Source: Streptomyces sp. P9-A2 (lineage in GTDB: Bacteria; Actinomycetota; Actinomycetes; Streptomycetales; Streptomycetaceae). Taken from it: a DNA stretch of 64,000 nt. This document shows positions 8,254 to 46,821 of the stretch, in pieces (positions within the stretch are counted from its first letter, which is position 1; each line of letters starts with the position of its first letter). Made by a program: the position numbers and the translations under genes. The notes beneath the pieces are model-generated. The model saw nothing but the letters and a program-made list of their open reading frames with translations, was not told where the DNA came from and ran no database searches. Location: the NCBI RefSeq assembly GCF_036634175.1, contig NZ_JAZIFX010000001.1:620001-684000 (forward strand). Reading direction: 5' to 3'.

Positions 8254-9408
8254 TCACCCGACGAAGCCCAGCTCCCTGGCGATCAGCATGCGCTGCACCT
8301 CGCTGGTGCCCTCGCCGATCTCCAGGATCTTGGAGTCCCGCCACATCCGGGCCACCGGATACTCGTTCATGAAGCCGTAGCCGCCGTGGATCTGCGTGGC
8401 CTCGCGGGCGTTGTCGACGGCGACCGTGGAGGAGTAGAGCTTCGCGATCGCCGCCTCCTTCTTGAAGGGCTCCCCGCCGATGAGGCGCGACGCCGCGTCC
8501 CGCCAGCCGACCCGTGCCATGTGCGCCCGCATCTCCATGTCGGCGATCTTGAACTGAATCGCTTGGTTCGCCCCGATCGGCTTCCCGAAGGCGTGCCGCT
8601 CCTTGGCGTACTTCACGGACTCGTCCACGCAACCCTGCGCGAGACCCGTCGCTAGCGCGGAGATGGCGACCCGGCCCTCGTCGAGAATCCGGAGGAACTG
8701 GGCATATCCTCGACCCTCTTCACCGAGGAGGTTCGCCGCCGGGACCCGCACGTCCGAGAAGGAGAGCTCGCGCGTGTCCGAGGCGCTCCAGCCGACCTTC
8801 GAGTACGGCGCCGCGACCGTGAACCCGGGCGTCCCCGACGGCACGATGATCGAGGAGATCAGCGGACGGCCGTCCGGCTTGCGGCCGGTGACGGCGGTGA
8901 CCGTGACCAGGCCCGTGATGTCCGTACCGGAGTTGGTGATGAAGCACTTGGAGCCGTTGATCACCCACTCGTCGCCGTCCCGCACCGCGGTCGTGCGGGT
9001 GCCGCCCGCGTCCGAGCCGCCGTCCGGCTCGGTCAGACCGAAGGCACCGAGCAGTTCACCGGAACAGAGCCGGGGCAGCCACTCCTGCTTCTGCTCGTCC
9101 GTGCCGAAGAGGTGTATCGGCATGGCGCCCAGCGAGACACCCGCTTCCAGTGTGATCGCCACGGAGGAGTCGACCCGCGCCAGCTCTTCGAGCGCGATGC
9201 CGAGCGCGAGATAGTCACCGCCCATGCCGCCGTACTCCTCGGGGAAGGGCAGGCCGAACAGGCCCATGCGGCCCATCTCGCGGACGATCTCGTACGGGAA
9301 CTCGTGGCGCTCGTAGTAGTCGCCGATCTTGGGGGCAACGACGTCGTGCGCGAACGCCTCGATCGTGCTGCGGAGTTCCTCGTGCTCGGGGGACAGATGG
9401 TGGTCCAT
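8254..9408 (-). CDS. Acyl-CoA dehydrogenase
   Basis: 384 aa from ATG 9408, with AGGAG just upstream. FAD enzyme introducing a 2,3-double bond into acyl-CoA. Seen: FGLTEPDGGSD and ITNSG in the FAD-binding middle domain, KPIGANQAIQFKIADM, QIHGGYGF, and the catalytic-base region near residue 365 (RDSKILEIGEGTSEVQRMLIAR), all typical of the short/branched-chain family. Third-position GC is very high. It resembles a housekeeping catabolic gene rather than a cluster gene. 325 bases with no visible gene separate it from the IS3 copy. Confidence 0.92.
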   Translation of the reverse strand: MDHHLSPEHEELRSTIEAFAHDVVAPKIGDYYERHEFPYEIVREMGRMGLFGLPFPEEYGGMGGDYLALGIALEELARVDSSVAITLEAGVSLGAMPIHLFGTDEQKQEWLPRLCSGELLGAFGLTEPDGGSDAGGTRTTAVRDGDEWVINGSKCFITNSGTDITGLVTVTAVTGRKPDGRPLISSIIVPSGTPGFTVAAPYSKVGWSASDTRELSFSDVRVPAANLLGEEGRGYAQFLRILDEGRVAISALATGLAQGCVDESVKYAKERHAFGKPIGANQAIQFKIADMEMRAHMARVGWRDAASRLIGGEPFKKEAAIAKLYSSTVAVDNAREATQIHGGYGFMNEYPVARMWRDSKILEIGEGTSEVQRMLIARELGFVG

Positions 9409-9812
9409 TCTTCTCCTCATTTGCGACTTGCAAGGTTTGGTCACTACATAAGTGCTGCATGTGAGGGAGTCGGCCGGCCCGCTGCAGCAGCTCGACATCA
9501 CACGCAGAGAACCGCGACCGTCGCCCAGGCTCTTTTGCTGGTGGTCTGCGCGGTCACGTCTGTCTCGCTAGCCCTGTCTTCGCTGATTGTTCTATCCCTT
9601 CGTTCTCCAGGCATGGCCAGGTTCCGTGTGGCGCTCGGAGCGCGGCTGCGGGGCCCCCGACAGCCGATCCGGGCGGCCGCCGCCGCGCGAATACGCTCTT
9701 CGCCGGCCTGTAGCGGGATGCCCAGCGGTCTCTCCCTCTCTGTCAGCCTTGGGTGAGACGTCCCGCTTCGGCGGGTTAGCCTGAGAGGGCACGACAGGAG
9801 AACCACCCCCTC

Positions 9813-10196
9813 ATGACCAGCAGCAAGTCCGCCGGATCCGACCCGGCTCCCCGGCCGAAGCGCCGCACTTTCAGCCCGGAGTACAAGCTGCGGATCGTGG
9901 CCGAGTACGACGCCGCCCCGCAGAACGAGAAGGGCGCGGTCCTGCGCCGCGAGCGGCTGTACCACTCGCATGTGAAGGAGTGGCGGGCCGCGCGGGATGC
10001 CGGGGCTCTGGAGAAGCTGGTCGACCAGCGTACCGGCCCGGCGAGGCCGAAGAAGTCTGCTGCCGAGGCGGAGAACGAGAAACTGCGCCGCCAGGTGGAG
10101 CGTCTGGAGAAGGAACTGGCGCGGAACAAGGCCGCGCTGGAGGTTATGGGAAAAGCTTCCGCGCTCTTGGAAATGATCTCCGAGGGCGCGGACTGA
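9813..10196 (+). CDS. IS3 transposase OrfA
   Basis: 127 aa. An N-terminal helix-turn-helix (KRRTFSPEYKLRIVAEYDA) binds the element ends, followed by a leucine-zipper-like coiled coil (about residues 78-110, AENEKLRRQVERLEKELARNK). GGGAAAA at 10148-10154 reads G-GGA-AAA in this frame, a classic -1 slippery heptamer, and leads into OrfB. In copy 2 the only visible protein change here is Gly to Ser near residue 76. Confidence 0.93.
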   Translation: MTSSKSAGSDPAPRPKRRTFSPEYKLRIVAEYDAAPQNEKGAVLRRERLYHSHVKEWRAARDAGALEKLVDQRTGPARPKKSAAEAENEKLRRQVERLEKELARNKAALEVMGKASALLEMISEGAD

Positions 10197-11221
10197 ACGC
10201 TGCCGTCACCCCGGTGGCCGATGACGCGTTCACCGGCGTCGAGGGCGTGCTGGGTGTGACTGCGGCGTGCCGGCTGACCGGCCGCTCGCGGGCCACCCAC
10301 TACCGCCGGCTGCGTCCGGCGCCACCACGCCGGCCCCGCAAGCCGCAGGTCCAGCCCTCGGCCCTGACGGCCGAAGAACGGTCTGCGGTAATGGAGTTGA
10401 TGAACAGCGACGAGTACGCCGAACTGGCGCCCGCGCAGATCTGGGCCCGCGAGCTGGATGCCGGGCGCTACCACTGCTCGGTCTCCACGATGTACCGGAT
10501 CCTGCGCGAGAAGGGCCAGTCCGGCGAGCGCCGAAGACAGGCCACCCACCCCGCCCAGGCGGTGCCCGAGCTGGTGGCCACCGCCCCGTCGCAGGTGTTC
10601 ACCTGGGACATCACCAAGGCGGCCGGACCGGCAAAGGGCATCTGGTATCACGCCTACGTCATCATCGACATCTTCAGCCGCTACATCGTCGGCCACACCG
10701 TCGAGGCCGCTGAATCGGCCGAACGGGCCGAGGAGTTGATCCGCGAGACCATCGTCCGCAACGGGATCGTGCCCGAGACCGTGCACGCCGACCGCGGCAC
10801 CTCGATGACGAGCAAGAAGGTCTCCCAGCTGCTGATCGACCTCGGGGTGACAAGGTCGCACTCGCGGCCGAAGGTCTCCAACGACAACCCCTACAGCGAG
10901 GCCCAGTTCAAGACCACGAAGTACATGTCGGACTATCCCGAACGGTTCGACTCGCTGGCCCACGCCCGCGAATGGTTCGACGCCTTCATCGCGTACTACA
11001 ACCACGAGCACCGGCACTCGGGCATCGGCTGGCACACACCCGCCTCCGTCCACTTCGGGACCGCCGAGGAGGTCCGCGACCAGCGCGCGGTCACCCTCGC
11101 CGAGGCATACGCCCGCCACCCCGAACGCTTCGGCCGCCGCCCCCGACCACCCGAGATACCCCAGACGGCCTGGATCAACGACCCGTCCAAGCGCCGCGAA
11201 CCCGCACCACAAACCTCATAG
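10148..11221 (+). CDS. IS3 transposase OrfB (DDE integrase), made by -1 frameshift
   Basis: The catalytic part is read from the slippery site in the -1 frame; the frame has no good start of its own near the junction, so the coordinates mark the fused portion. The rve integrase core is clear: FTWDITKA (first Asp), HADRGTSM (second Asp), then SNDNPYSEAQFKTTKY (Glu). An HTH_21-like domain precedes it. Copy 2 differs at a few residues (for example AQFK versus APFK after the catalytic Glu). Confidence 0.92.
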   Translation, partial: GKSFRALGNDLRGRGLNAAVTPVADDAFTGVEGVLGVTAACRLTGRSRATHYRRLRPAPPRRPRKPQVQPSALTAEERSAVMELMNSDEYAELAPAQIWARELDAGRYHCSVSTMYRILREKGQSGERRRQATHPAQAVPELVATAPSQVFTWDITKAAGPAKGIWYHAYVIIDIFSRYIVGHTVEAAESAERAEELIRETIVRNGIVPETVHADRGTSMTSKKVSQLLIDLGVTRSHSRPKVSNDNPYSEAQFKTTKYMSDYPERFDSLAHAREWFDAFIAYYNHEHRHSGIGWHTPASVHFGTAEEVRDQRAVTLAEAYARHPERFGRRPRPPEIPQTAWINDPSKRREPAPQTS

Positions 11222-11394
11222 CATCACGACCGTCTCACTGGACTTGAAATCTTCCGTCTTGACCCGCCCCCGTCACGAGCGCCCGGCTGCGTCCTCGCCG
11301 GGCCCGCGGCGCGGCAGGCGTGGACGCGGGAGAGGGGCGGTCGTTCCCTGTGCGTAGCGGGGGTGCCGCTGCGCCCGAAGCTCGCGGCGTCGGG

Positions 11395-12119
11395 TTACTT
11401 CACTGGGCCTCCCCTTATCGCGTCGGCTATCCGGTCGAGCGCCTGGAGGAGAACGGGCCATGAGGTTGCGAAGCCCAGCCGGACGAAGTCCTTGCTGACC
11501 GGCCCGAAGTCGGCACCCTCCATGGCCGACACTCTGGCTGCCCGCGAGATGAACTCCGCAGGGCCTGCGTTGCCCTGGCCGAGCCACTCAGGCAGTTCCA
11601 GCCACGACAGGTACGAAGCCTCTGGCTCGACGTAGCCGATGACGGGCAGCTCGGTGCGGGCGAAGAGGCTGACGACGTCGCGGTTTCCGGCTAGATAGTC
11701 GATCACCGAATCCAGCCACTCTGCGCCGTCGAGATACGCGGCCATCGCCGCGACAGCCCCCAGGGTGGAGGTTGAGTTCGACGTCGAGCGCAGCATCTCG
11801 GAGCCATCCCATGCTGCCACGGCGTTCCGGTGCGGCAGGATCACTTCTGCACACTTGATGCCGGAGATGTTCCATGCCTTGGACGCCGAGGTGATCGTGA
11901 AAGTGATGCTCGACGCTGTTTCACCAGGCAGCGAGGCGAAGGGGAGGTGCGTGGCGGAGGGGTAGGCCAACGGGGCATGGACCTCGTCACTGATCACCAT
12001 GCCGCCGTGCCTGCGCACCAGCTCCGCCAGCTGTACTAGCTCACCCTCCTTCAGAACGGACCCTGTCGGATTGTGCGGGTTGCACAGGACGACGAGACAC
12101 GGGCCCTCGGTCTTCAGAT
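11395..12119 (-). pseudogene. PLP aminotransferase (MalY/PatB-like), N-terminus lost
   Basis: About 240 C-terminal residues of a fold-type I aminotransferase or C-S lyase. Seen: NPHNPTG, ISDEVHAPL (Asp binding the PLP nitrogen), and the PLP lysine in TITSASKAWNISG. The expected first 150 or so residues are gone: at 12119 the reading frame runs into a truncated IS5-type element. In full-length relatives this enzyme transaminates or cleaves cysteine-type substrates. It is probably a former cluster gene downstream of the oxoamine synthase on the same strand. Confidence 0.85.
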
Positions 12120-12791
12120 GGCCTGTCGACCTCAACTGCATACCGCTACCTCCACGAGGTACTGGCCGTCCTGGCCGCCGGCGCACCGGACCTGTCCACC
12201 GCGCTGGAGCGCGCGAAGGCAGCCGGGCTGACGCATCTGCACCTCGACGGTACGGTCATCCGTACCGACCGCGTCGCCGCCCCGGGCCCCAACGGCGCAG
12301 ACCTCTGGTGGTCCGGAAAACACAAGCACCATGGCGGGAACGTGCAGGTCATCGCTACCCCGGACGGCTGGCCGATCTGGGTCTCGCCCGTACGGCCGGG
12401 CCGGGAACACGACACCACCTGCGCCCGCCACCACGGGCTGGTCGAAGCACTCAACCGCATCGCGGCCGAGCTGGACATGCCGACCCTGGTCGACCTCGGC
12501 TACGAGAACGTCGGCGACGGCTTCCGGCACCCGCACAAGAAGCCCGCCGGAGGCGAGCTGACCGAGGCCCAGCAGACGTACAACAAGGTCATCCGCGGCA
12601 TCCACGGCGTCTGCGAGCGCGCCAACTCCCTGCTCAAGACCACCTTCAAGGCACTGCGCAGGGTCAGCTTCGACCCCAGCCGCATCACGAAGATCGCCGC
12701 CGCGGCCCTCGTCCTGCTCCAGCTCGAGTACGACCGCACCATCTGAACAATCACACACCGTCGTGATCCATTACTGGCAAAGGCTCAATGG
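12119..12791 (+). mobile_element. Truncated IS5-type element (right-hand 673 bp)
   Basis: Matches the element at 23352-24368 (opposite strand) from the motif ATGGCCTGTCGACC to the right end CAATGG. Its left 340 bases, with the transposase N-terminus, are missing. The open frame (about 12131-12746) encodes the DDE_Tnp_4-like catalytic part (LHLDGTVIRTDR, WSGKHKHHGGNVQV, VDLGYENVG, CERANSLLK). Both flanks are broken PLP-enzyme genes, so it marks a deletion that removed parts of both. Confidence 0.85.
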
Positions 12792-13545
12792 CTCTCCCCG
12801 CGGCTCCGAATCCCTTGTTCAGCGAGGTAATGATCATCGTGCGCTCGTTGGTCGAACCCATCACGTCCAGGGCGTGGCCGCGCCCGTTTGCCCCCACTAC
12901 CGACGTGCTGTGGGCTTCGTCGAAGTACAGGAACAATCCGCACTCCGCCTGAAGACGCATGAGTTCGCGGATGGGCGCGACGGTCCCACCGGTGCTGTAA
13001 ACAGAATCACATATGTATGCAACGGCCTCATGCTCGCGGCATATCTCCTCGAGGGCTTCCATGTCGTTGTGCAACACGGTCATAACCTGCGTCTCGTCAG
13101 CACAGGCCGCCTTCAGCGCCAGCATGCAGAAGTGCGCCCTCTCGTCGAAGACGACAACGGGAGGATTCTCCCCTGTCAGCAGACCCGAAGCCAGAACGGG
13201 CAAGGTCGCCCAGGCCGCCGCCGCACACGAGTTGATGGTCCCGGTATCCGCATCGAACAGGTCGCTCAGCTCGGCTTCGGCCTCCTCGAGGAGCGGCATG
13301 GTCATCCTCACGCGCGACAGCGAGCTGTTGAGGACCCCGGTGCGCTGAACGGCAGCAGCGGCCGCCGCAATGATTTTGGGGTGTTCGTCAAGTCCCAGAT
13401 ATGAGTAGGACGACATATTGACGATACTTCTGTCGTCGGGCGTGCGCAGCAGCCCTCCGCTGCTCGGCTCCAGCACGCATCCGTGGACGCCTTCCTCCCG
13501 GGCGTAGTCCCAGTTGTGATTGCTGAGCGCCTGCATCTTCTTCAC
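12792..13545 (-). pseudogene. Alpha-oxoamine synthase 1, C-terminus lost
   Basis: About 250 N-terminal residues of a PLP-dependent alpha-oxoamine synthase (KBL/BioF/ALAS/CqsA family, joining an amino acid to an acyl thioester with loss of CO2). Start GTG 13545. Seen: NMSSYSYLGLDE, NSSLSRVRMT, FDEAHSTSVVG and the PLP lysine in SLNKGFGAAG. The frame runs into the IS5-type fragment five residues after that lysine motif, so the small C-terminal domain is gone. It is a clear paralogue of the intact gene at 25795-27024. It is divergent from dnaE across a 359-base gap. Confidence 0.9.
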
Positions 13546-13904
13546 GTTTCCGTACTGGTGAAACGTCTACATCCTGCCCCCCGCGCCTTTCGTTGGTAGC
13601 TGCATCGATCGTAGTAGCGACCGCATGGTGCACCCCGCCGAGGCCTGCGGCAATGACGCCTTCAGGTCGGCCTTCCAAGACCAAGGGCGACAAAAGCCTC
13701 AAACGCCGTGCTCGTGTGTGGCGTTTGACGCAAAATCGACCAAGAGCCCGACGTGTTGGCCTCCCTGTTGCACCGCCAGCACCAGCACCTGGCCCCGGAC
13801 GTGACCCGGACGCCACCTCCAACAGCAATGCGCCCGCCCACCGGTTGCAGCTAGCCTATCGGGACTCCCCTCAACAGTCCCCCTCGCACCTGGAGGCCAA
13901 AGCC

Positions 13905-16900
13905 GTGACAAAGCCGCCATTCACACATCTGCACGTCCACACCCAGTACTCGATGCTGGACGGCGCCGCGCGGCTGAACGACATGTTCAAGGTCAGCAAC
14001 GAGATGGGCATGACGCACATCGCGATGACCGACCACGGCAACCTCCACGGGGCGTACGACTTCTTCCACTCCGCTCAGAAGGCGGGCGTCACGCCGATCA
14101 TCGGGATGGAGGCGTATGTGGCGCCGGAGTCCCGCCGCAACAAGCGGAAGATCAAGTGGGGCCAGCCGCACCAGAAGCGGGACGACGTGTCCGGTGGTGG
14201 CTCCTACACCCACCTGACCATGTGGGCGACGAACAAGACCGGCCTGCACAACCTGTTCAAGCTCTCCTCGGACGCGTACGCGGAGGGCTGGCTGCAGAAA
14301 TGGCCGCGGATGGACAAGGAGGTCCTCGCCCAGTGGTCGGAGGGCATCGTGGCCTCCACCGGGTGCCCCTCCGGAGAGGTCCAGACCCGGCTGCGCCTGG
14401 GGCAGTTCGACGAGGCGCTCCAGGCAGCCGCTGACTACCAGGACATCTTCGGCAAGGACCGCTTCTTTCTGGAGCTGATGGAGCACGACCTCGACCTCGA
14501 ACACCGAGTCCGCGACGACCTGCTCCGGGTCGGCAAGAAACTCGGCCTCCCGCCGCTGGTGACGAACGACTCGCACTACACCTACGCGCACGAGGCGACC
14601 GCCCACGACGCGCTGCTGTGCATCCAGACCGGCAAGAACCTCTCGGACCCCGACCGCTTCAGACTGGCGGGAGGGGGCTATTACCTGAAGTCGACCGACG
14701 AGATGTACGCCCTGGTCAACTCAGACGTCTGGCGTGAAGGCTGCGACAACACCCGGCTGATCGCCGACATGGTCGACACCTCCGGCATGTTCGAGAAGCG
14801 CGACCTCATGCCGAAGTTCGACATCCCCGAGGGCTTCACCGAGGTCACCTGGTTCCGCGAGGAGACCATGCGCGGGATGCACCGCCGCTTCCCGGACGGC
14901 ATCCCGGACGACCGCATGAAGCAGGTCGAGTACGAGATGGACACCATCATCTCGATGGGCTTCCCGGGCTACTTCCTCGTGGTCGCCGACTTCATCATGT
15001 GGGCCAAGAAGCAGGGCATCGCCGTCGGCCCCGGCCGCGGCTCCGCCGCCGGCTCGATCGTCGCGTACGCCATGGGCATCACCGACCTCGACCCGATCCC
15101 GCACGGACTGATCTTCGAGCGGTTCCTCAACCCCGAGCGCGTCTCGATGCCCGACGTCGACATCGACTTCGACGAGCGCAGGCGCGTCGAGGTGATCCGG
15201 TACGTCACCGAGAAGTACGGCGCCGACAAGGTCGCCATGATCGGCACCTACGGCAAGATCAAGGCGAAGAACGCCATCAAGGACTCCGCGCGCGTGCTGG
15301 GCTACCCGTACGCCATGGGCGACCGGCTCACCAAGGCCATGCCCGCCGACGTCCTCGGCAAGGGCATCGACCTCGACGGCATCACCAACCCCTCGCACCC
15401 GCGCTACAACGAGGCCGGCGAGATCCGCGCGATGTACGAGAACGAGCCGGACGTGAAGAAGGTCATCGACACCGCCAAGGGCGTCGAGGGCCTCGTGCGG
15501 CAGATGGGCGTGCACGCGGCCGGCGTGATCATGTCCAGCGAACCCATCGTCGACCACGCCCCGCTCTGGACGCGGCACACCGACGGCGTGACCATCACGC
15601 AGTGGGACTACCCGCAGTGCGAGTCGCTCGGCCTGCTGAAGATGGACTTCCTGGGCCTGCGCAACCTCACCATCATGGACGACGCCATCAAGATGGTGAA
15701 GGCCAACAAGGGCATCGACCTGGAGATGCTCGCGCTTCCGCTGGACGACCCCAAGACCTTCGAACTGCTCTGCCGCGGTGACACCCTCGGCGTCTTCCAG
15801 TTCGACGGCGGCCCGATGCGCTCGCTGCTCCGCCAGATGCAGCCCGACAACTTCGAGGACATCTCCGCCGTCTCGGCCCTCTACCGGCCGGGCCCGATGG
15901 GCATGAACTCGCACATCAACTACGCGGAGCGCAAGAACGGCCGCCAGGAGATCACCCCGATCCACAAGGAGCTGGAGGAGCCGCTCCGGGAGGTGCTGTC
16001 GGTCACCTACGGCCTGATCGTCTACCAGGAGCAGGTGCAGAAGGCCGCCCAGATCATCGCGGGCTACTCGCTCGGCGAGGCCGACATCCTCCGCCGCGTG
16101 ATGGGCAAGAAGAAGCCCGACGAGCTGGCGAAGAACTTCACCATCTTCCAGGCCGGTGCCAAGAAGAACGGCTACAGCGACGAGGCCATCCAGGCCCTGT
16201 GGGACGTCCTGGTGCCCTTCGCCGGCTACGCCTTCAACAAGGCCCACTCCGCCGCGTACGGCCTCGTCTCCTACTGGACCGCGTACCTCAAGGCCAACTA
16301 CCCGGCCGAGTACATGGCGGCGCTGCTCACCTCGGTCAAGGACGACAAGGACAAGTCGGCCGTCTACCTCAACGAGTGCCGCCGCATGGGCATCAAGGTG
16401 CTCCCGCCGAACGTCAACGAGTCGGAGCACAACTTCGCCGCCCAGGGCGACGACGTCATCCTGTTCGGCCTCGAAGCCGTGCGCAACGTCGGCACCAACG
16501 TGGTCGAGTCGATCATCCGCAGCCGCAAGGCCAAGGGGAAGTACGCCTCCTTCCCCGACTACCTCGACAAGGTCGAGGCCGTCGCCTGCAACAAGCGCAC
16601 CACGGAGTCGCTGATCAAGGCGGGCGCCTTCGACACGATGGGGCACACCCGCAAGGGCCTCACCGCGCACTTCGACTCGATGATCGACAACGTGGTCGCG
16701 GTCAAGCGCAAGGAGGCCGAGGGCCAGTTCGACCTCTTCGGCGGGATGGGTGAGGAGGAGAGCAGCGAGCCGGGCTTCGGGCTCGACGTCGAGTTCACCA
16801 CCGACGAGTGGGAGAAGACCTATCTCCTCGCCCAGGAGCGGGAGATGCTCGGCCTCTACGTCTCCGACCACCCCCTTTTCGGACTGGAGCACGTGCTCGC

Positions 16901-17441
16901 CGACAAGGCCGACGCGGGCATCGCCCAGCTCACCGGCGGCGAGCACGCGGACGGCGCGGTCGTCACCATCGGCGGCATCATCTCCGGCCTGCAGCGCAAG
17001 ATGACCAAGCAGGGCAACGCCTGGGCCATCGCCACCGTGGAGGACCTCGCCGGTTCCATCGAGTGCATGTTCTTCCCGGCGTCCTACCAGCTCGTGTCGA
17101 CCCAACTCGTCGAGGACGCGGTCGTGTTCGTCAAGGGCCGCCTCGACAAGCGCGAGGAGGTGCCGCGGCTCGTCGCCATGGAGATGCAGGTCCCCGACCT
17201 GTCGAACGCAGGCATCGATGCCCCAGTGATCCTCAGCATTCTCGAGAACCGGGTGACCCCGCCCTTGGTCACCCGACTCGGGGAGATCCTCAGCCACCAT
17301 CGCGGCAACAGCGAAGTACGCATCAAGGTCCAAGGCCGACAGAAGACAACGGTGCTGCGTCTCGACCGACACCGCGTCACACCGAGCCCGGCGCTTTTCG
17401 GCGACCTCAAAGCACTGCTGGGATCCTCCTGCTTGGTTTGA
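13905..17441 (+). CDS. dnaE: DNA polymerase III alpha subunit (DnaE1 type)
   Basis: 1178 aa, the length I recall for streptomycete DnaE1. Start GTG 13905 with GGAGG 8 bases upstream; the frame is open further up but without a second good site. Seen: N-terminal PHP domain (HLHVHTQYSMLDG, MTDHGNLHG), palm motif PDVDIDFDERRR with catalytic aspartates near residue 420, GRGSAAGS, fingers, tandem helix-hairpin-helix, and OB fold near residue 1015 (VVTIGGIISGLQRK). It synthesises the chromosome with the sliding clamp. Oddities: it sits among IS elements, next to a broken cluster gene, and codon use changes at both ends (see findings). Whether this is the only dnaE of the host cannot be seen here. 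Confidence 0.97.
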   Translation: MTKPPFTHLHVHTQYSMLDGAARLNDMFKVSNEMGMTHIAMTDHGNLHGAYDFFHSAQKAGVTPIIGMEAYVAPESRRNKRKIKWGQPHQKRDDVSGGGSYTHLTMWATNKTGLHNLFKLSSDAYAEGWLQKWPRMDKEVLAQWSEGIVASTGCPSGEVQTRLRLGQFDEALQAAADYQDIFGKDRFFLELMEHDLDLEHRVRDDLLRVGKKLGLPPLVTNDSHYTYAHEATAHDALLCIQTGKNLSDPDRFRLAGGGYYLKSTDEMYALVNSDVWREGCDNTRLIADMVDTSGMFEKRDLMPKFDIPEGFTEVTWFREETMRGMHRRFPDGIPDDRMKQVEYEMDTIISMGFPGYFLVVADFIMWAKKQGIAVGPGRGSAAGSIVAYAMGITDLDPIPHGLIFERFLNPERVSMPDVDIDFDERRRVEVIRYVTEKYGADKVAMIGTYGKIKAKNAIKDSARVLGYPYAMGDRLTKAMPADVLGKGIDLDGITNPSHPRYNEAGEIRAMYENEPDVKKVIDTAKGVEGLVRQMGVHAAGVIMSSEPIVDHAPLWTRHTDGVTITQWDYPQCESLGLLKMDFLGLRNLTIMDDAIKMVKANKGIDLEMLALPLDDPKTFELLCRGDTLGVFQFDGGPMRSLLRQMQPDNFEDISAVSALYRPGPMGMNSHINYAERKNGRQEITPIHKELEEPLREVLSVTYGLIVYQEQVQKAAQIIAGYSLGEADILRRVMGKKKPDELAKNFTIFQAGAKKNGYSDEAIQALWDVLVPFAGYAFNKAHSAAYGLVSYWTAYLKANYPAEYMAALLTSVKDDKDKSAVYLNECRRMGIKVLPPNVNESEHNFAAQGDDVILFGLEAVRNVGTNVVESIIRSRKAKGKYASFPDYLDKVEAVACNKRTTESLIKAGAFDTMGHTRKGLTAHFDSMIDNVVAVKRKEAEGQFDLFGGMGEEESSEPGFGLDVEFTTDEWEKTYLLAQEREMLGLYVSDHPLFGLEHVLADKADAGIAQLTGGEHADGAVVTIGGIISGLQRKMTKQGNAWAIATVEDLAGSIECMFFPASYQLVSTQLVEDAVVFVKGRLDKREEVPRLVAMEMQVPDLSNAGIDAPVILSILENRVTPPLVTRLGEILSHHRGNSEVRIKVQGRQKTTVLRLDRHRVTPSPALFGDLKALLGSSCLV

Positions 17442-17626
17442 AACCCGGTACGCATGTCCCTGCGCGGTGTCCCGCAGAGGCGCTGTCTTCACGAACTCCT
17501 GTACGGCGGCCCGCGGATGAGGCCGCTGGCTTGGGGAGGCGCCAGTGATGGCAGCGGCCCCCTGCGGGAGCGGGCTGCGGCGTCCCGTCTCGTCAGCTGC
17601 CAGGCTCCGCAATGCGCTGCTCGAGG

Positions 17627-18326
17627 GCTCGGCTACACGAAGGCCGCCGGCCTCGGGCACGCCTCCTTGACCTGCAACGATAGGACTTGCTGAGGGTCCT
17701 GTTGGCTGCGAGGAAAAGAGCACTTTCCAGGTGAGAGAGCCTACCGGGTCATACCCGTCTGTCCGGGTCCAGGGCGACGGCCGTCAGGTGGTCTCGCAGG
17801 CTGGCTCGGTCCTGCTGGTGGAGACGGTCCGCAAGGCCGGTCTGGACACCGCGATATCCGAGGCACTCGGGCCGTGGCGGAAGCCACGGGCCGTTCACGA
17901 TCCCGGGAAGGTCCTCCTGGACGTCGCCCTGGCGGTCGCGTTGGGCGGCGACTGTCTCGCGGATGTCGGCATGCTGCGGGCCGAGCCGGCGGTGTTCGGG
18001 CCGGTCGCCTCCGACCCAACGGTCTCCCGCCTGCTCGACTCCCTCGCGGCCTCCGGGGAGAAGGCCCTGCGGGCGATCCGTTCCGCGCGGGCCGAAGCAC
18101 GCGAGCGCGTCTGGCGAACGGCGGCCGGGCCGCGCCCGACACCGGCGGGATGGTGACCGTCGATCTCGACGGGGTACTGGCGATCGCGCACTCCGACAAG
18201 GAGGACGCAGCCCCGACCTGGAAGCGGACCTATGGTCACCACCCGCTCATGGGTTTCGTCGACCACGGACCGGGAGGCACCGGAGAGCCCGTGGCGGCTC
18301 TGCTGAGGCCGGGGAACGCAGGCTCG
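17627..18326 (+). pseudogene. IS1380 element copy A, 5' part
   Basis: N-terminal 200 codons of an IS1380-family transposase (compare intact copy B at 30304-31964). It begins near GTG 17731 after GCACTTTCCAG, with conserved VVSQAGSVLLVETVRK and VDLDGVLAIAHSDK. The frame breaks near 18112, where comparison with copy B implies GGG has become GG. At 18326, after the codons for PGNAGS, a group II intron interrupts the gene. The left terminal repeat is too degenerate to place exactly; about 17627 is an estimate. Confidence 0.8.
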
Positions 18327-18463
18327 GTGCGACACGAGGTCGCACAGTTTGAGTGGTTGCACCGATTGGAGGTTCGACTGATGTCGAAGGTGTAGATCCG
18401 GGCCAGTGTCCAAGGCCCGTCCCCGCTTCGGAAGATTTCAAGTCCAGTGAGACGGTCGTGATG

Positions 18464-19537
18464 CTATGAGGTTTGTGGTGCGGGTTCGCGGCGCTTGGAC
18501 GGGTCGTTGATCCAGGCCGTCTGGGGTATCTCGGGTGGTCGGGGGCGGCGGCCGAAGCGTTCGGGGTGGCGGGCGTATGCCTCGGCGAGGGTGACCGCGC
18601 GCTGGTCGCGGACCTCCTCGGCGGTCCCGAAGTGGACGGAGGCGGGTGTGTGCCAGCCGATGCCCGAGTGCCGGTGCTCGTGGTTGTAGTACGCGATGAA
18701 GGCGTCGAACCATTCGCGGGCGTGGGCCAGCGAGTCGAACCGTTCGGGATAGTCCGACATGTACTTCGTGGTCTTGAACGGGGCCTCGCTGTAGGGGTTG
18801 TCGTTGGAGACCTTCGGCCGCGAGTGCGACCTTGTCACCCCGAGGTCGATCAGCAGCTGGGAGACCTTCTTGCTCGTCATCGAGGTGCCGCGGTCGGCGT
18901 GCACGGTCTCGGGCACGATCCCGTTGCGGACGATGGTCTCGCGGATCAACTCCTCGGCCCGTTCGGCCGATTCAGCGGCCTCGACGGTGTGGCCGACGAT
19001 GTAGCGGCTGAAGATGTCGATGATGACGTAGGCGTGATACCAGATGCCCTTTGCCGGTCCGGCCGCCTTGGTGATGTCCCAGGTGAACACCTGCGACGGG
19101 GCGGTGGCCACCAGTTCGGGCACCGCCTGGGCGGGGTGGGTGGCCTGTCTTCGGCGCTCGCCGGACTGGCCCTTCTCGCGCAGGATCCGGTACATCGTGG
19201 AGACCGAGCAGTGGTAGCGCCCGGCATCCAGCTCGCGGGCCCAGATCTGCGCGGGCGCCAGTTCGGCGTACTCGTCGCTGTTCATCAACTCCAGTACCGC
19301 AGACCGTTCTTCGGCCGTCAGGGCCGAGGGCTGGACCTGCGGCTTGCGGGGCCGGCGTGGTGGCGCCGGACGCAGCCGGCGGTAGTGGGTGGCCCGCGAG
19401 CGGCCGGTCAGCCGGCACGCCGCAGTCACACCCAGCACGCCCTCGACGCCGGTGAACGCGTCATCGGCCACCGGGGCGACGGCAGCGTTCAGTCCGCGCC
19501 CTCGGAGATCATTTCCAAGAGCGCGGAAGCTTTTCCC
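18464..19537 (-). CDS. IS3 transposase OrfB, copy 2
   Basis: DDE integrase core as in copy 1, read by -1 frameshift from OrfA at the slippery heptamer (complement at 19531-19537). Catalytic motifs FTWDITKA, HADRGTSM and SNDNPYSEAPF are intact. Differences from copy 1 include ELMN context (VLELMN versus VMELMN) and Pro instead of Gln after the catalytic Glu. Confidence 0.92.
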   Translation of the reverse strand, partial: GKSFRALGNDLRGRGLNAAVAPVADDAFTGVEGVLGVTAACRLTGRSRATHYRRLRPAPPRRPRKPQVQPSALTAEERSAVLELMNSDEYAELAPAQIWARELDAGRYHCSVSTMYRILREKGQSGERRRQATHPAQAVPELVATAPSQVFTWDITKAAGPAKGIWYHAYVIIDIFSRYIVGHTVEAAESAERAEELIRETIVRNGIVPETVHADRGTSMTSKKVSQLLIDLGVTRSHSRPKVSNDNPYSEAPFKTTKYMSDYPERFDSLAHAREWFDAFIAYYNHEHRHSGIGWHTPASVHFGTAEEVRDQRAVTLAEAYARHPERFGRRPRPPEIPQTAWINDPSKRREPAPQTS

Positions 19538-19872
19538 ATAACCTCCAGCGCGGCCTTGTTCCGCGCCAGTTCCTTCTCCAGACGCTCCACCTGGCGGCGC
19601 AGTTTCTCGTTCTCCGCCTCGGCGGCGGACTTCTTCGGCCTCGCCGGGCTGGTGCGCTGGTCGACCAGCTTCTCCAGGGCCCCGGCGTCCCGCGCTGCCC
19701 GCCACTCCTTCACATGCGAGTGGTACAGCCGCTCGCGGCGCAGGACCGCGCCCTTCTCGTTCTGCGGGGCGGCGTCGTACTCGGCCACGATCCGCAGCTT
19801 GTACTCCGGGCTGAAAGTGCGGCGCTTCGGCCGGGGAGCCGGGTCGGATCCGGCGGACTTGCTGCTGGTCAT
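19489..19872 (-). CDS. IS3 transposase OrfA, copy 2
   Basis: 127 aa, same helix-turn-helix and coiled-coil layout as copy 1, with QRTSPARPKK where copy 1 has QRTGPARPKK. Intact, so this copy could be mobile. Confidence 0.92.
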   Translation of the reverse strand: MTSSKSAGSDPAPRPKRRTFSPEYKLRIVAEYDAAPQNEKGAVLRRERLYHSHVKEWRAARDAGALEKLVDQRTSPARPKKSAAEAENEKLRRQVERLEKELARNKAALEVMGKASALLEMISEGAD

Positions 19873-20489
19873 GAGGGGGTGGTTCTCCTGTCGTGCCCTC
19901 TCAGGCTAACCCGCCGAAGCGGGACGTCTCACCCAAGGCTGACAGAGAGGGCTTCGACGTGCGTCACTGGCAACAGTGGGGTGCGGAGCTCGAAGAAGAC
20001 GCCCAAGGGTTCCCGATCCGTCCGGGGGCCACAGGCAAGGGGAAGACCGGACGGGTGAACGCGAGTGAACCCCTGATGATGCCTCGTCACGTTTGGGCTC
20101 CGCCAGACGGAAGTCTTCAGCGGAGTGCAGGGACTGGCCGCGGAGAAGCGGTGGGTGCCGGTCGGACTGCGAACCGCCGACCGGGAGGACACCACCGTCC
20201 CCGGGGTATAGAGAGCGCCCACCCCGATTCTATCTCAACTGTGTGGAACGTGGAAACCCCGACGGGGTCCGCTCAGGCGACTGAGCGGTGAGCCGACTGC
20301 GAGGAAGGCCCAGCCCCCGGGCGGGAACAGGATGACCCAAGAAGCGAACGCCGGCAGCTGAAAGGCAGCGGGAAGACGGGGCAACACGTTCGGCCCTCCG
20401 CCGATCGCCCTGCATAACCGGCCGGATACGGGCACGTGCCCGAACTCGAAAGGGTGCCGACGTGGGTCGGGTGAGTCTGTGGAGACCAG

Positions 20490-22124: not shown

Positions 22125-22296
22125 CTCACCGCCGTCCGCAAGGCGATCCGCCGCACGGCGCTCGCCACTGAGGACGGCCACCCGCCAGACGACACCGCAC
22201 GCTGCCTCATGCACGCCCACTGCGCGCGACGGCGCATCGCCGCCCGCGCACCGGGACCAGCAGTTCTGCCTGCCCGCGAGCCTTTGGGGCTTGCTT

Positions 22297-22372
22297 GAGC
22301 CGGGTGCCTGGAAAGCGGGCACGCACGGTTCTGAGGGGGCCCCGGCGCAGTAATGCGCTGGGGCTACCCGAC
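22297..22372 (+). ncRNA. Group II intron 1, domains V and VI
   Basis: Domain V is the 35-base hairpin beginning GAGCCGGGTGCC with a GAAA-type tetraloop region and ending GCACGCACGGTTC, the catalytic core of the ribozyme. Domain VI follows (CCCCGGCGCAG / TGCGCTGGGG, with an unpaired A as branch-point candidate). The intron ends in CTACCCGAC. Confidence 0.88.
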
Positions 22373-25794: not shown

Positions 25795-27024
25795 CTACTG
25801 CTGATCGACCCCGAGCTTGTGCCACACGTGTGCGAACTGCTCGATGTCCGCGGTCGACATGGAGGACCGGATTCGGGCGCGCAGGCCCGCCGCACCCCTG
25901 CTGACGATTGGGAAGAAGTCCGGCTCCACGTAGAATCCGTTGTCGAACAGGTAAGCCGACGTTTCCAGCGTATCGGCCTCGGAACCCAGCTCCAGGTATC
26001 GGATCGGGACGCTGTTTCCCTGGCCAGCGGCACGAACGAGGCCATCGAAAAGCGCAATGTTGCTGTGCAGTTTGGCTTGCAACTCAGGCAGAGCCTCACT
26101 GCGGTGGAGCTTGGCGGACTCGATGATCGCGCCCAGTGCCGGAGTGGTCAAACGCTGGGACCACATCATCGGGCCGCTGCTGCGCTGGATGATCTTTCGT
26201 TTGCGGTCGTCGTCCCTGGGGCCGAACACGATGGCACCGCCTGATGCACCGAAACCCTTGTTCAGCGACGTGATGAGCATGGTCGAATCGTTGATCGCGC
26301 CCATCCGGTCCAGAACATAACCCCGGCCCATGTCACCGATCACCGACGTGCTGTGTGCTTCGTCGAAGTAGAGGAAGAGCCCGAACTCCTCCTGGAGCTC
26401 GAAGAGTTCCTCAAGTGGCGCTAGAGTCCCTCCCGTGCTGTAGACGGAATCGCAGACATAAGCTACGCGTTTGTTCTTCCTGCAGATGTCGGCAAGAGCG
26501 TCGACGTCGTTGTGCCTGATCGTCTCGACCCTGGTCTCGTCGGCACACAGGGACTTGAGCGCCGCCATGCAGAAATGGGCGCGCTTGTCGAACACCATCA
26601 CCGGGGCGACACCATCGGTGAGGAGACCGGAAGCCAGGACCGGCAACGTGGCCCACGCCGCTGCCGAGCACGAATTGAGGGTCGCCACATCCGCCCCGAA
26701 CAGATCGCCGAGTGCGCACTCGGCTTCTTCGAGGAGCGGAAGGGTCATCCGGACTCGCGACAACGAACTGTTCAGGACCATGTTGCTCCGCAGCGCGGCG
26801 ATCGCGGCGTCGATGATCCTCGGGCTCTCGTCCAGCCCCAGATAGGAGTAGGACGACATGTTGACCGCTACTCGACCGTCCGGCGCGCTGAGTCTTCCTC
26901 CCGGGACGGCCTGCAGCACTGCGCCATGGACTCCGAGCCGTGCCGCCGAGTCCCAGTAGCCGTCACTCAGGTGCCGGAGCTTCTTGACGTCGGAGAAGCC
27001 GTGACGCGAATTTTCCATCCCCAC
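25795..27024 (-). CDS. Alpha-oxoamine synthase 2 (PLP-dependent)
   Basis: 409 aa (GTG 27024; ATG 27018 is an alternative), full family length. It condenses an amino acid with an acyl-CoA or acyl-carrier thioester and loses CO2, giving an alpha-aminoketone. Seen: NMSSYSYLGLDES, NSSLSRVRMTLPLLEEAE, CDSVYSTGGT, LYFDEAHSTSVIG, PLP lysine in SLNKGFGASGG, and an intact C-terminal domain. It resembles CqsA/glycine-C-acetyltransferase types. Last gene of a minus-strand operon, 16 bases after the ATP-grasp gene; known ketomemicin pathways pair these two enzyme types. Substrates unknown. Confidence 0.93.
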   Translation of the reverse strand: MGMENSRHGFSDVKKLRHLSDGYWDSAARLGVHGAVLQAVPGGRLSAPDGRVAVNMSSYSYLGLDESPRIIDAAIAALRSNMVLNSSLSRVRMTLPLLEEAECALGDLFGADVATLNSCSAAAWATLPVLASGLLTDGVAPVMVFDKRAHFCMAALKSLCADETRVETIRHNDVDALADICRKNKRVAYVCDSVYSTGGTLAPLEELFELQEEFGLFLYFDEAHSTSVIGDMGRGYVLDRMGAINDSTMLITSLNKGFGASGGAIVFGPRDDDRKRKIIQRSSGPMMWSQRLTTPALGAIIESAKLHRSEALPELQAKLHSNIALFDGLVRAAGQGNSVPIRYLELGSEADTLETSAYLFDNGFYVEPDFFPIVSRGAAGLRARIRSSMSTADIEQFAHVWHKLGVDQQ

Positions 27025-27040
27025 ATTCCCTCTCGCATCC

Positions 27041-28363
27041 TTAAGACAACGTTCCGGCCGTCGTGGCGATCTCGTCCTTCATCGCTGTGAGCCGATCCCA
27101 GTTCTTGGAGAACACGAGCAGTTCGGCTCCCGGACCGAGATCCGAGTTGCAGCCGAGAACCACAGCCCCTTCACCTGAGTCCTTGTCGTACCTCACGCCC
27201 GCCCTCTCGATCGACCGGAGAAGGTCCGCGAGCCCCGCGGGCACAACATTGAGGATGGAAGAGAAGAAGTTGTTGCGGGCGTAGTCGTGCCCGAGGAGTC
27301 GTTCGGCGACGGTGTGGTAGATGAGACCGCCGCTCCAGCGAGCGTTGATCTCGTGGAAGAAGACCCGGCCATCGTCCAGCACGATGCCGTCGATGTTCAC
27401 GTACCCGCGGTAGCCGATGGTCCGGACCAGTTCGATGAACTCTTCCGCGGGCTTCAAGGTCGCCTCGAACTCAGAACGTGACGGGGAGTCCAGTCCGATC
27501 CACTTGGCGCTGCCGCCAGAACCCTCCGGCAACTGCTCGTACTTCAGGATCGAGCTGTGCAGGAAACGTGCACGGTCGCCGTCGAGGTGGTACTCGAAGA
27601 AGAATCGTTGGTCTGCGCGGTGGTACGTCTCCAACGTGATGAACTGGTTCTGGGTGTCCGTCAGCTGCGACCACAGGGTGTCTGCGAGGGTATCGAGCTG
27701 GTCGTTGGCGTACGCCAGGACCTCGCGCGTTCCCGGGAAGGACGACTCCGGCGACGTCGATATTCCGATGTTGCCGTGGCCGCCACCACTCCTGTCCTGC
27801 TTGGCGATGACCATTCCGGTCTCAGCGATCAGTTCCTGGATCGCGCTCCGCACCTCAGCCGGACCGCGAGCGACGACGCCGTCCGTCAGCGGGGTGCCGA
27901 GACCGGCCGCCAGCCTGCGGAACGTCGACTTCATGTTCAGCAGATCGATGCCGTTCTGCATGGCGAACTCGTAGCCGTCGAGCGCTGCGACGTTCAGCTT
28001 CCGGGTCAGCTGCGCGGCGGCGCGCGTCGACACGCAGGGGAACAAGCTCCATCCCGCGCCGGTTCCCGTGTGCGCGGCGAGCCGGTCGATGAACTCCGGA
28101 TCCTGCAGGACCGCTTCGCTCAGCGGAGTCTGCGTCCGCTCCACGTGGACGCTCGTGCCGTCGATGCCGAGGGTGTCCGCAACGTAGCCCGGGAAGTCGG
28201 GGTCCACGGTGTCGGGTATGACCAGCACGTCCCCGTCCTCCGCGTGCCACAGGAACCTCGCCGTCGTGTCGGTCGACGACGCCGTCGCATCCGAGATTCC
28301 CAACCAGTCGCGAACCTGCTCCGAGTAGTCGGCCCGGAAGTTCGGAAGGATGATCTTTGGCAA
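27041..28363 (-). CDS. PGM1-like ATP-grasp peptide ligase
   Basis: 440 aa from TTG 28363 with GGAG 8 bases upstream. ATP-grasp enzymes form amide bonds through an acyl phosphate. Seen: an N-terminal pre-ATP-grasp domain (about 1-150), the nucleotide loop AKQDRSGGGHGNIG (near 215), LETYHRADQRFFFEYH, and the metal site FFHEINARWSGG (near 340). The order and C-terminal region resemble the PGM1 family (pheganomycin, ketomemicin), which adds an amino acid to a free amine outside an NRPS. It could replace the missing condensation domains here (inference). Confidence 0.85.
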   Translation of the reverse strand: MPKIILPNFRADYSEQVRDWLGISDATASSTDTTARFLWHAEDGDVLVIPDTVDPDFPGYVADTLGIDGTSVHVERTQTPLSEAVLQDPEFIDRLAAHTGTGAGWSLFPCVSTRAAAQLTRKLNVAALDGYEFAMQNGIDLLNMKSTFRRLAAGLGTPLTDGVVARGPAEVRSAIQELIAETGMVIAKQDRSGGGHGNIGISTSPESSFPGTREVLAYANDQLDTLADTLWSQLTDTQNQFITLETYHRADQRFFFEYHLDGDRARFLHSSILKYEQLPEGSGGSAKWIGLDSPSRSEFEATLKPAEEFIELVRTIGYRGYVNIDGIVLDDGRVFFHEINARWSGGLIYHTVAERLLGHDYARNNFFSSILNVVPAGLADLLRSIERAGVRYDKDSGEGAVVLGCNSDLGPGAELLVFSKNWDRLTAMKDEIATTAGTLS

Positions 28364-28408
28364 CCGTGATCTCCGCTCTCTGTGGATACGTCATGCCGGC
28401 CGGACGCG

Positions 28409-28957
28409 TCAGGGATTCTCGTGGCGGAAGTCGAGCTCCGCGTGCAGTTTCGGGATCCCGTCGGACGTGATGGTCACCACGTTGTGCAGATGCCCTGGTC
28501 CGTCGGAGGTGAAATCGTCGGTCATGATGACGTCGCCGCCGTGGTCGCGCAACAGGATCGCGCCCGAGAAGATCAGGTGACCGTCGACCCAACCAGCACC
28601 GGACGTGACCGCATCGATGTGGTTGCCCCGATCGTCGAAGTAGATCGACACGAACTGCTCGAGCTCGGGGCTCCAGCCGAAGATGTATCGGCAGTGCTGA
28701 CCCGTCGGGTGCAGCTCGTTCGGTTCCTGGGTGTAGTCCCACTCGTACCACGTGCCCCGGAGGATCGGCGAGAGCTTGCCCCGGAACAATCCCTTCACCG
28801 GGGAATCCTCGCGTCCCGGAGGGTACACCGTGGATTCGCATCGCCAGTTGCCCAGGAAGGGGGTGAGGGGACGCATCTCCTCGCGGGGTACGAACCCATC
28901 CGGCACGGGCAGGACGAGGCCCTGCGGGAGTTCGTGGGAGCTGGAGGTCTCGGACAT
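28409..28957 (-). CDS. DUF1579-like small beta-barrel protein
   Basis: 182 aa from ATG 28957 with AGGAG upstream. Seen: LTPFLGNWRCESTVYPPG near residue 30, RGTWYEWDYTQ, a YIFGWSPELEQFVSIYFDDRG strand pair and a terminal LDFRHENP. This is the pattern of calycin-like DUF1579 proteins, which bind small ligands or have no known role. No signal peptide. Its place between the PanD-like and ATP-grasp genes (gaps of 117 and 45 bases) suggests it handles a pathway intermediate; this is inference. Confidence 0.65.
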   Translation of the reverse strand: MSETSSSHELPQGLVLPVPDGFVPREEMRPLTPFLGNWRCESTVYPPGREDSPVKGLFRGKLSPILRGTWYEWDYTQEPNELHPTGQHCRYIFGWSPELEQFVSIYFDDRGNHIDAVTSGAGWVDGHLIFSGAILLRDHGGDVIMTDDFTSDGPGHLHNVVTITSDGIPKLHAELDFRHENP

Positions 28958-29074
28958 CGTGTGCTGCTCCTGTCGATCGTCGTGCTGATGGGGATCTCGG
29001 AACACCGCGTGGTCGGCGTCGCGATGCGCCGGGCCCTCGCGCCGGCCGCTCATCGCGTCGAACGACGTGTGCAG

Positions 29075-29896
29075 CTACTGCCGGATCGCCGCAGTTCCGT
29101 CGGTCAGCACCAGCGACATGCGATGGTTCTTGTCGGCGAACCGGAACGACGCGACGCTGACCGTTGCTCCGAGCGGAGCGAATCCGGCCATGGCCCCGGT
29201 GGTCATGATCACGCCGTCGGGCATGGGCACGGCGTAGGTGTTCGTCCCGCCGCCGGCCGACGAGTTGTAGACCGTCACCATTGTGTGCCGGGACATGTTG
29301 GCTTCGCGCATCACGCTGCCCGGGATCTCCGCGCTCCCGAGCAGGCAGTCGTCCTTCGTGTCGTTGACGACGAGCCCCGTGATCAAGCTGTTGACCATCA
29401 GCCTGGGCATCAGCTCCTCCCTGAGCGGGTGTTCGTCCGGCACCGACCCCAGTTCCTCGTCACCGGTCAGGCGCTCGTACTTCAACGTCCCGGTGTCCAG
29501 CTTGTTGCCCGGGATGATGCCGTAGTCGACGATGGGCAGCGTTCCGTCCGCGTGGAGTTCCTGGCCGCGATCCCCGAGCCTGGTCTCCGATATGATGCAC
29601 ACCAGGTCGCCTGTGCTCAGGAAGTGGGCGACGCTGCCGCGGGCTTCCACCATGCCGGTGTCGGAATGCACGACGAACGTGTGCACCCGGTTCTCGATGT
29701 TGCTGGCGCCGATGCGAGCGACGATCACCGCCTCCCCGAGCACGAGATCGCTCACGGCGCACAGCTCCGGCGGCAGCGCGATGCCCTCACCGATGGCGGA
29801 GTCCGACCGCGCGCTCTCGTTCGTGGATCGATAGGCCGCATCAATGGTCAGGTTGTGGATCGCGCTCCGCTTGCACGGCATCTCGGGACCGATCAC
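29075..29896 (-). CDS. Tandem PanD-like (aspartate-decarboxylase-fold) protein
   Basis: 273 aa from GTG 29896, chosen for GGAGGA 6 bases upstream. Two copies of the PanD double-psi barrel appear in tandem. Domain 1 (about 10-115): KRSAIHNLTIDAAY, SDSAIGEGIALP, HTFVVHSDTG, GSVAHFLSTGDLVCIIS. Domain 2 (about 140-260): NSLITGLVVND, LLGSAEIPGSVM, NTYAVPMPDG, TGAMAGFAPLGATVSVASF. PanD self-cleaves at a Gly-Ser to make a pyruvoyl group; domain 2 keeps Gly-Ser, domain 1 has Asp-Ser. The PanD lysine and arginine of the active site are not obvious. Possibly a pyruvoyl decarboxylase with a new substrate, or a non-catalytic relative. First gene of the operon. Confidence 0.6.
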   Translation of the reverse strand: MIGPEMPCKRSAIHNLTIDAAYRSTNESARSDSAIGEGIALPPELCAVSDLVLGEAVIVARIGASNIENRVHTFVVHSDTGMVEARGSVAHFLSTGDLVCIISETRLGDRGQELHADGTLPIVDYGIIPGNKLDTGTLKYERLTGDEELGSVPDEHPLREELMPRLMVNSLITGLVVNDTKDDCLLGSAEIPGSVMREANMSRHTMVTVYNSSAGGGTNTYAVPMPDGVIMTTGAMAGFAPLGATVSVASFRFADKNHRMSLVLTDGTAAIRQ

Positions 29897-30303
29897 GGAT
29901 GCTCCTCCGAATTCGTTGTTGACTAATTGCCAGGTTCCTGCGCGCCGATCACCTGTCGGACCGGCGCTGCGGGTGTGGATACCGGCCGACCCGTGGACGT
30001 CGGCTCGTGCGCATCGGTGCATCGTCGTCTGCGTCCTCGGACCGAAGCCTGCACTCCCATCTTCCGAATTCGAGTTCGTGCAGTCGGAACCCCGCGAGAT
30101 GTTCGACGATTCGCCCGCTTGGTCGGGCAGTCGGCACTGATTCTGATAACCGGCGCCAGCTATCCTGCTACCGTCATGGAGATGGTGCCACATCAGAAGC
30201 CCCCACTAGTGAGTGGCTGTGATGTTGGCCGGAATTCGACGGCGAGATGTACGCGAGGGCACGTGAAACGGACGCCGATGCTAACAACCATGTCCCCCTC
30301 TAA
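29897..30303. other. Upstream region of the PanD-like operon
   Basis: 407 bases without a supported gene. It should hold the promoter of the four-gene minus-strand operon. The left end of IS1380 copy B, with its CTAA target duplication, lies at its far edge, so any divergent partner gene has been separated. No operator or riboswitch could be identified by eye. Confidence 0.4.
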
Positions 30304-33797: not shown

Positions 33798-33818
33798 CCA
33801 CTGGCCAAGCCACGTGGA

Positions 33819-33918
33819 GAGCCGGATGCGTGGCCAACACGCACGTCCGGTTCGGGTCGGCGGCCCAGAGAAACGGAACGGCAGCAATGCCGTTCACCGC
33901 GCTCTGGGCCGACCGCAC
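33819..33918 (+). ncRNA. Group II intron 2, domains V and VI
   Basis: Domain V starts GAGCCGGATGCGTGG and ends CACGCACGTCCGGTTC (33819-33853). Domain VI is the long hairpin CGGCCCAGAG ... CTCTGGGCCG around GAACGGCAGCAATGCCGTTC. The same structure, with one base change just upstream, occurs inverted at 41579-41677. Confidence 0.85.
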
Positions 33919-41573: not shown

Positions 41574-41578
41574 CATGT

Positions 41579-45357: not shown

Positions 45358-45404
45358 GCGCCCCCACTCCACCTCCACCGTCACTGCGAAAGGAGCCGGC
45401 GGCG

Positions 45405-46814: not shown

Positions 46815-46821
46815 GGGCACG

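Follow-up and report, generated by a model that had tools for sequence, protein, structure and literature searches.

A second, mosaic DnaE1 gene beside an alpha-oxoamine synthase operon in Streptomyces: a candidate self-resistance copy

Why should a Streptomyces genome carry a complete replicative polymerase gene, dnaE, next to a broken alpha-oxoamine synthase (AOS) gene? The question is raised by a 64,000-nucleotide stretch of Streptomyces sp. P9-A2 (hereafter the window; C1:620001-684000 of an 8.39 Mb genome in two contigs), in which an earlier reading of the letters alone, the sequence-only reading, had seen a possible self-resistance copy of the polymerase. We found that the window gene is a second DnaE1 of foreign origin, lying in a block rich in insertion sequences (IS) that is common to this strain and Streptomyces flavidovirens, together with an AOS-type biosynthetic operon. 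The observation of the sequence-only reading is thereby confirmed, and its interpretation is borne out in part. From this setting we infer a role as target copy, which is weighed below against its rivals.

The window dnaE has the complete domain order of a replicative polymerase (PHP, alpha NTPase, finger, HHH and OB; Pfam). Its 1178-aa product scored 1503 bits against the DnaE1 equivalog PRK05673 (NCBIfam cut-off 1002) and only 579 bits against the error-prone DnaE2 class (PRK05672, cut-off 939), confirming the earlier claim of an intact replicative gene. The frame is not a chance one, because it is 91% identical to the other DnaE of the genome and its family-specific ends (described below) have a ratio of non-synonymous to synonymous change (dN/dS) of 0.20 against S. 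flavidovirens. The DnaE alpha NTPase domain (PF07733) was matched at two places in the genome, both of DnaE1 type, and no DnaE2-type polymerase was found among these matches. The other dnaE1, at C1:1882993-1886520, is 99.2, 97.1 and 96.4% identical to the dnaE of the genomes G130, G142 and G160, respectively, and the region around it aligns colinearly with G130 for 11.1 kb (95% nucleotide identity). On this comparison it is the housekeeping gene in its conserved locus. The window dnaE has neither the orthologous position nor the sequence of the closest relatives: its best-scoring match among 295 genus genomes was 92%, and with residues 1-295 as query, which matched 387 of 392 genus genomes at 1e-100, the best-scoring of the matches listed after the own genome was 87%. 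The genome search that the sequence-only reading had called for thus returned two dnaE1 genes, of which the window copy is the extra one, a second copy of an essential target.

Comparison with other dnaE1 genes showed that the window gene is a mosaic, whose core, judged from the alignments, has been overwritten by the strain's own housekeeping dnaE through gene conversion. Residues 1-300 are 97-98% identical to the copies of S. flavidovirens and Streptomyces sp. 35G-GA-8 and at most 85% identical to 31 native genes. Residues 361-720 match the own housekeeping gene (Table 1), with a longest identical run of 302 bases, and are also 98.4% identical in nucleotides to the G130 dnaE. The longest run of matching variable sites was 71, a length reached in none of 10,000 shuffles (largest 42). 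Against the S. flavidovirens copy, the synonymous difference was 0.05 in residues 1-295 and 0.06 in residues 1086-1178 but 0.32 in residues 296-1085; between the two native dnaE genes of these strains it was 0.31 to 0.70. FastTree phylogenies of approximately 170 sequences, with clades read relative to the default root, grouped the three copies together for residues 1-277 (support 1.0) and, with no support value, for residues 1100-1178. For residues 361-720 they were scattered across a 28-member group, in which the window copy stood beside its own native gene. All three copies have in common 29 residues that occur in at most 5% of 164 other DnaE1 proteins, a set that includes search representatives irrespective of their copy number per genome; 19 lie in residues 1-277, 10 in residues 1104-1178 and none in residues 278-1103. 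An earlier alignment gave 11 window residues absent from all 148 others; 35G-GA-8 has every one of the 11. The family-specific ends were seen here in only two strains besides the window strain.

These two strains also bear on the linkage to AOS. A protein search returned the 35G-GA-8 DnaE at 98% identity, on a contig of 23,823 bp, with the next listed match at 91%. Further family members may be hidden, since that database is clustered at 90% and its best 120 matches did not include the S. flavidovirens copy. That copy came from a degenerate pattern for the family-specific 5' part, for which 80 of 116 matching stretches were listed, so that absence elsewhere cannot be read from it; of 143 loci numbered from L035 upward, a single one contained dnaE, that of S. 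flavidovirens DSM 40150. There the second dnaE, 94% identical to the window copy, is divergent from an open AOS gene. The same genome contains, besides, a native dnaE (86%) and a gene of DnaE2-like type (30%). On the AOS strand follow genes for a GFA-fold protein, a DUF1579-like protein and a pre-ATP-grasp ligase with a PGM1 C-terminal domain, and further on a PatB-type C-S-lyase/aminotransferase and an acyl-CoA-dehydrogenase-type enzyme. All six operon genes, AOS included, are open.

Three parts remain in the window: the dehydrogenase (1403 bases at 99.0% nucleotide identity to S. flavidovirens), the second part of the pyridoxal phosphate (PLP) enzyme (865 bases at 98.6%) and the first part of AOS. 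The genes between these parts had no match at this place. Its AOS is 96% identical to residues 18-282 of the open S. flavidovirens protein and carries an in-frame stop near the start, at the position of residue 22. Window positions 12787-18326 form one continuous alignment with S. flavidovirens, bearing out the claim that no mobile element separates dnaE from the broken AOS gene divergent from it. In 35G-GA-8, AOS is 97% identical over 52% of the query and is listed on a contig of likewise 23,823 bp; given the equal length and the strain name, dnaE and AOS are very probably on one contig. The linkage thus recurs in S. flavidovirens and, by this reasoning, in 35G-GA-8. Across the three strains dnaE is always open, and AOS is truncated in two; its similarity ends at different residues in 35G-GA-8 and in the window, so AOS seems to have been lost twice.

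The flanking inverted elements noticed by the sequence-only reading are present as two copies, 99% alike and 7172 nt apart, on either side of the dnaE/AOS pair. The left copy encodes a 413-aa frame with an rve integrase core; the IS3 label fits but is putative. A promoter scan of the divergent dnaE/AOS region recognised nothing. Of the second related gene set (Table 1), AOS2 is 65% identical to the S. flavidovirens AOS, the pre-ATP-grasp ligase 43% and the DUF1579-like protein 65%. Parts of this set resemble a larger cluster in G079 (L183), which also has a P450, an MFS pump, an ornithine/lysine monooxygenase and a Cys/Met PLP enzyme.

Table 1. Coordinates of the dnaE locus, its neighbours in the window and dnaE pieces on plasmids.
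Feature	Position	Strand	Remarks
Second dnaE1 (DNA polymerase III alpha), intact	13905..17441	+	1178 aa, start GTG
Family-specific 5' part of dnaE, residues 1-277 (PHP domain)	13905..14735	+	19 family-fixed residues
Converted core of dnaE, residues 361-720	14985..16064	+	100% aa, 98.4% nt to own housekeeping dnaE
Family-specific 3' part of dnaE, residues 1104-1178 (tail after OB fold)	17214..17441	+	10 family-fixed residues
Truncated AOS, BioF/Kbl-type PLP acyltransferase	12751..13545	-	Divergent from dnaE
674-nt element arm ending the AOS fragment	12118..12791	.	Inverted copy at 23352-24025
Truncated PLP enzyme (PatB C-S-lyase-like)	11395..12132	-	Residues 157-401 of S. flavidovirens protein
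Acyl-CoA-dehydrogenase-type enzyme, AOS operon member	8254..9501	-	98.8% aa to S. flavidovirens
Transposase element (rve core), left bracket copy	9734..11256	.	1523 nt
Same transposase element inverted, right bracket copy	18429..19951	.	1523 nt
Transposase-like remnant 3' of dnaE (label by inspection)	17731..18326	+	Likewise 3' of S. flavidovirens copy
Second related set: AOS2, pre-ATP-grasp ligase, DUF1579-like, PanD-like decarboxylase	25795..30193	-	8 kb away
Plasmid dnaE pieces	L227 12001-13079; L228 12001-12829		

The best single reading, although we put it somewhat short of an even chance, is that the second DnaE1 is the target copy, and hence the self-resistance gene, of the AOS operon. 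It is supported by the position of the second copy beside the operon, with the housekeeping locus conserved elsewhere, and by S. flavidovirens, where the same divergent pair stands with six open operon genes and a native dnaE is present besides. Further support comes from a dnaE that stays open in all three strains while AOS is truncated at different residues in two, from the confinement of all 29 family-fixed residues to the two ends with the PHP ligands retained, and from the precedents narR/ngnU and griR/mypR. The second DnaE1 would then be a replicase with a PHP exonuclease domain and C-terminal tail unlike those of the native enzyme, and would keep working when the operon product impairs native DnaE1. 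As the core is overwritten by native sequence, any useful difference would have to lie in the two ends, or else the benefit is extra dosage from the gene's own promoter. Differences in the ends might alter the proofreading site, the primer path or subunit contacts, and tolerance would need to stem from the ends, from dosage or from regulation.

Selection on the ends was assessed against S. flavidovirens. The unconverted dnaE ends and the intact dehydrogenase both had a dN/dS of 0.20; the two broken genes had higher values, 0.66 for AOS and 0.43 for the PLP enzyme. The counts for the dnaE ends are small (9.5 non-synonymous and 14.5 synonymous changes), so the lower ratio suggests only weakly that dnaE is still maintained, and supports self-resistance to the same degree. 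The nine PHP metal-ligand positions are present in the window DnaE, and the exonuclease should therefore be active. The PHP centre, long loop and DNA-path residues were taken from PMC5636811. At the DNA-path position of M. tuberculosis Ser102 the second-copy family has Gly98, although Ser occupies this position in 164 of 164 natives. The remaining DNA-path positions (Ser96, Tyr101, Lys132 and Trp133) are retained. The long loop was not enriched in family-fixed residues, holding 3 of the 19 within 29 of the 277 residues.

Several observations weigh against self-resistance. The block was probably transferred once and recently (synonymous difference of about 0.05, against 0.31-0.70 between natives), so the linkage does not represent three independent events. 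Gene ends beside foreign flanks may escape conversion without any selection, and the ends show no excess of amino acid change, dN/dS for residues 1-295 being 0.22-0.29 against natives and 0.15-0.29 between native pairs. Known inhibitor-contact residues are identical to the native ones: the nargenicin contacts in M. tuberculosis DnaE1 are Gln638, Arg667 and His787 (PMC8922275), and their equivalents Q632, R661 and H781 are the same in the native and second copies, which excludes a resistance change at those contacts. A changed polymerase site, on the pattern of the nargenicin analogy in the sequence-only reading, is not supported by either the converted core (residues 361-720) or the three residues, and we ruled out a nargenicin-like resistance change for the known contacts. 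Elsewhere in the genus the two genes occur apart. AOS was matched at 1e-60 in 27 other genus genomes, and dnaE was absent from all eight of those loci examined (G079 over 30 kb; G161, G332, G016, G076, G034, G337 and G375 over 20 kb each). Conversely, 12 of 392 genus genomes, the own included, had two PHP-type matches at 1e-100. Seven of the 11 others (G047, G105, G120, G165, G184, G198 and G200) have two full-length DnaE1-type frames, the second copies being 56-80% identical to the window copy; G123, G150, G180 and G230 each have at least one copy that is split or partial. No match to the S. flavidovirens AOS, ligase, PLP enzyme or dehydrogenase was found in nine stretches of about 20 kb around such genes in eight genomes (G184, G105, G047, G165, G180, G200 with two, G198 and G120).

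The main rival, possible though on balance doubtful, is that dnaE was a passenger in IS- or plasmid-mediated transfer with the operon, a redundant replicase unrelated to the product and kept functional by recombination with the native gene. One recent block would explain the linkages, nucleotide identity being mostly 97-100% across AOS, the dnaE 5' part and the 3' flank, and such a history would also suit the eight AOS loci lacking dnaE and the occurrence of dnaE genes and pieces on plasmids (43 records). It sits less easily with a polymerase frame open in three of three strains beside an AOS truncated at different points in two, with the purifying dN/dS of the family-specific ends, and with ends that stay distinct although the core recombines.

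That the gene encodes a specialised polymerase, an alternative DnaE1 with other proofreading or subunit contacts for use under stress or in place of an absent DnaE2, is improbable. The confinement of family-fixed differences to the proofreading (PHP) region and the C-terminal tail, Gly98 at the Ser102 position and the finding of two PF07733 matches, both of DnaE1 type, in this genome would agree with it. However, S. flavidovirens has the second copy as well as a DnaE2-like gene, the metal ligands and the four other DNA-path residues are retained, and the protein scores as DnaE1, below the error-prone cut-off. Furthermore, Ser102 was reportedly not among the four exonuclease-reduced mutants (PMC5636811).

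We consider it very improbable that dnaE is a replication gene belonging to a mobile element, such as a linear plasmid that has integrated, for all that the window has transposases, an integrase and group II introns. Among plasmids, dnaE alone as query matched 43 records, of which 34 are from Streptomyces, yet none covers 80% of the gene; with the whole block as query, 20 of 53 records had been listed. In 37 the match is below 80% nucleotide identity; the other six exceed 80%, and each is a piece spanning 9-28% of the gene, annotated as nothing or as hypothetical. For the most part, the pieces on S. yangpuensis and S. coeruleorubidus plasmids resemble the window copy no more closely than they do natives; a core piece of 560 nt is 92.7% identical to the window copy and 90.9% to one native. 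No plasmid replication gene was found among the 40 window frames scanned with Pfam, the remaining frames lying outside the scan. Finally, the alternative raised by the sequence-only reading, that the cluster landed beside the only chromosomal dnaE, found no support and is rejected, the housekeeping gene at C1:1882993-1886520 being 99.2% identical to a relative's dnaE in a colinear 11.1-kb region.

Returning to self-resistance, a more specific form of it, which we regard as unlikely, is that the operon makes an inhibitor acting through the DnaE1 PHP proofreading domain or the C-terminal subunit-binding region, and that resistance is a chimeric replicase with ends fixed by selection and a core updated by gene conversion with the host enzyme. 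We know of no natural product that acts through either region. Adenylation motifs gave no clear substrate for the product. A replisome target duplicated beside a cluster is one of the best pointers to the target of its product, and here the mosaic points to the PHP exonuclease domain and the C-terminal tail, away from the polymerase active site. As S. flavidovirens DSM 40150, a culture-collection strain, has the open dnaE/AOS pair, the self-resistance idea is directly testable. The locus shows, too, that the gene for a replicative polymerase is able to pass from one Streptomyces species to another and to recombine there with the copy already present.

Some features of the other second dnaE1 loci and of the wider window were also recorded. 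In G165 a nonribosomal peptide synthetase lies near the second dnaE1. A different second dnaE1 (79%) lies close to a chromosome end in G184, G105 and G047 (L234, L235 and L236); neighbours of the G047 copy are an MFS pump, a BTAD (SARP-like) regulator, a SpoIIE phosphatase and a methyltransferase, possibly a further dnaE-linked cluster. More distant second dnaE genes (55-56%) occur in G200 (L239) and G198 (L240), that of G200 near a condensation-domain protein, an S-adenosylmethionine synthetase and a UvrD-like helicase. The window itself has two group II introns with reverse transcriptases (20490-22372 and 32394-33918), a third intron end in which no reverse transcriptase was seen (41577-41678), a tyrosine-recombinase frame (34956-35849) and a weaker one below the cut-off (33671-34681). 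Two sets of P450 and adenylation-carrier genes lie at 4-2808 and 44143-50055, their P450s 57% identical to each other; the latter set also has a condensation domain and a beta-lactamase-fold protein.

Compared with housekeeping Streptomyces DnaE1, the window protein has all domains, the metal ligands and the core, and is 91% identical to that of its own genome. The differences lie in residues 1-300, whose identity to the 31 natives does not exceed 85% (the protein search gave 88% at best), and in the tail, at about 80%. No description of this dnaE/AOS locus was found in the open-licence PMC literature. According to a census of alpha subunits across bacteria, genomes with two DnaE1 are rare, at 0.3% where DnaE2 is lacking and 0.3% where it is present (PMC3919608). 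A pan-genome survey of 121 Streptomyces with a strict duplicated-target filter names GAPDH, the proteasome and DnaN, and not DnaE (PMC8510958). The closest parallel in kind is narR/ngnU, for which a resistance role has been postulated (PMC8922275); this homologue of dnaE adjoins the nargenicin gene cluster in Nocardia sp. CS682. Like it, the window locus pairs a second DnaE with biosynthetic genes. On the side of differences, the window polymerase has a native core with unchanged contact residues, and its block has moved between Streptomyces. No modular polyketide synthase of the kind in nargenicin-type clusters was found in the 40 Pfam-scanned frames, further frames being unscanned. In the griselimycin and mycoplanecin clusters, griR/mypR encode a second DnaN near transposases, with product and binding shown (PMC10817943). 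Those loci resemble the window in having a duplicate replisome target in or beside a cluster and near transposase genes; the target is the sliding clamp there and the polymerase here.

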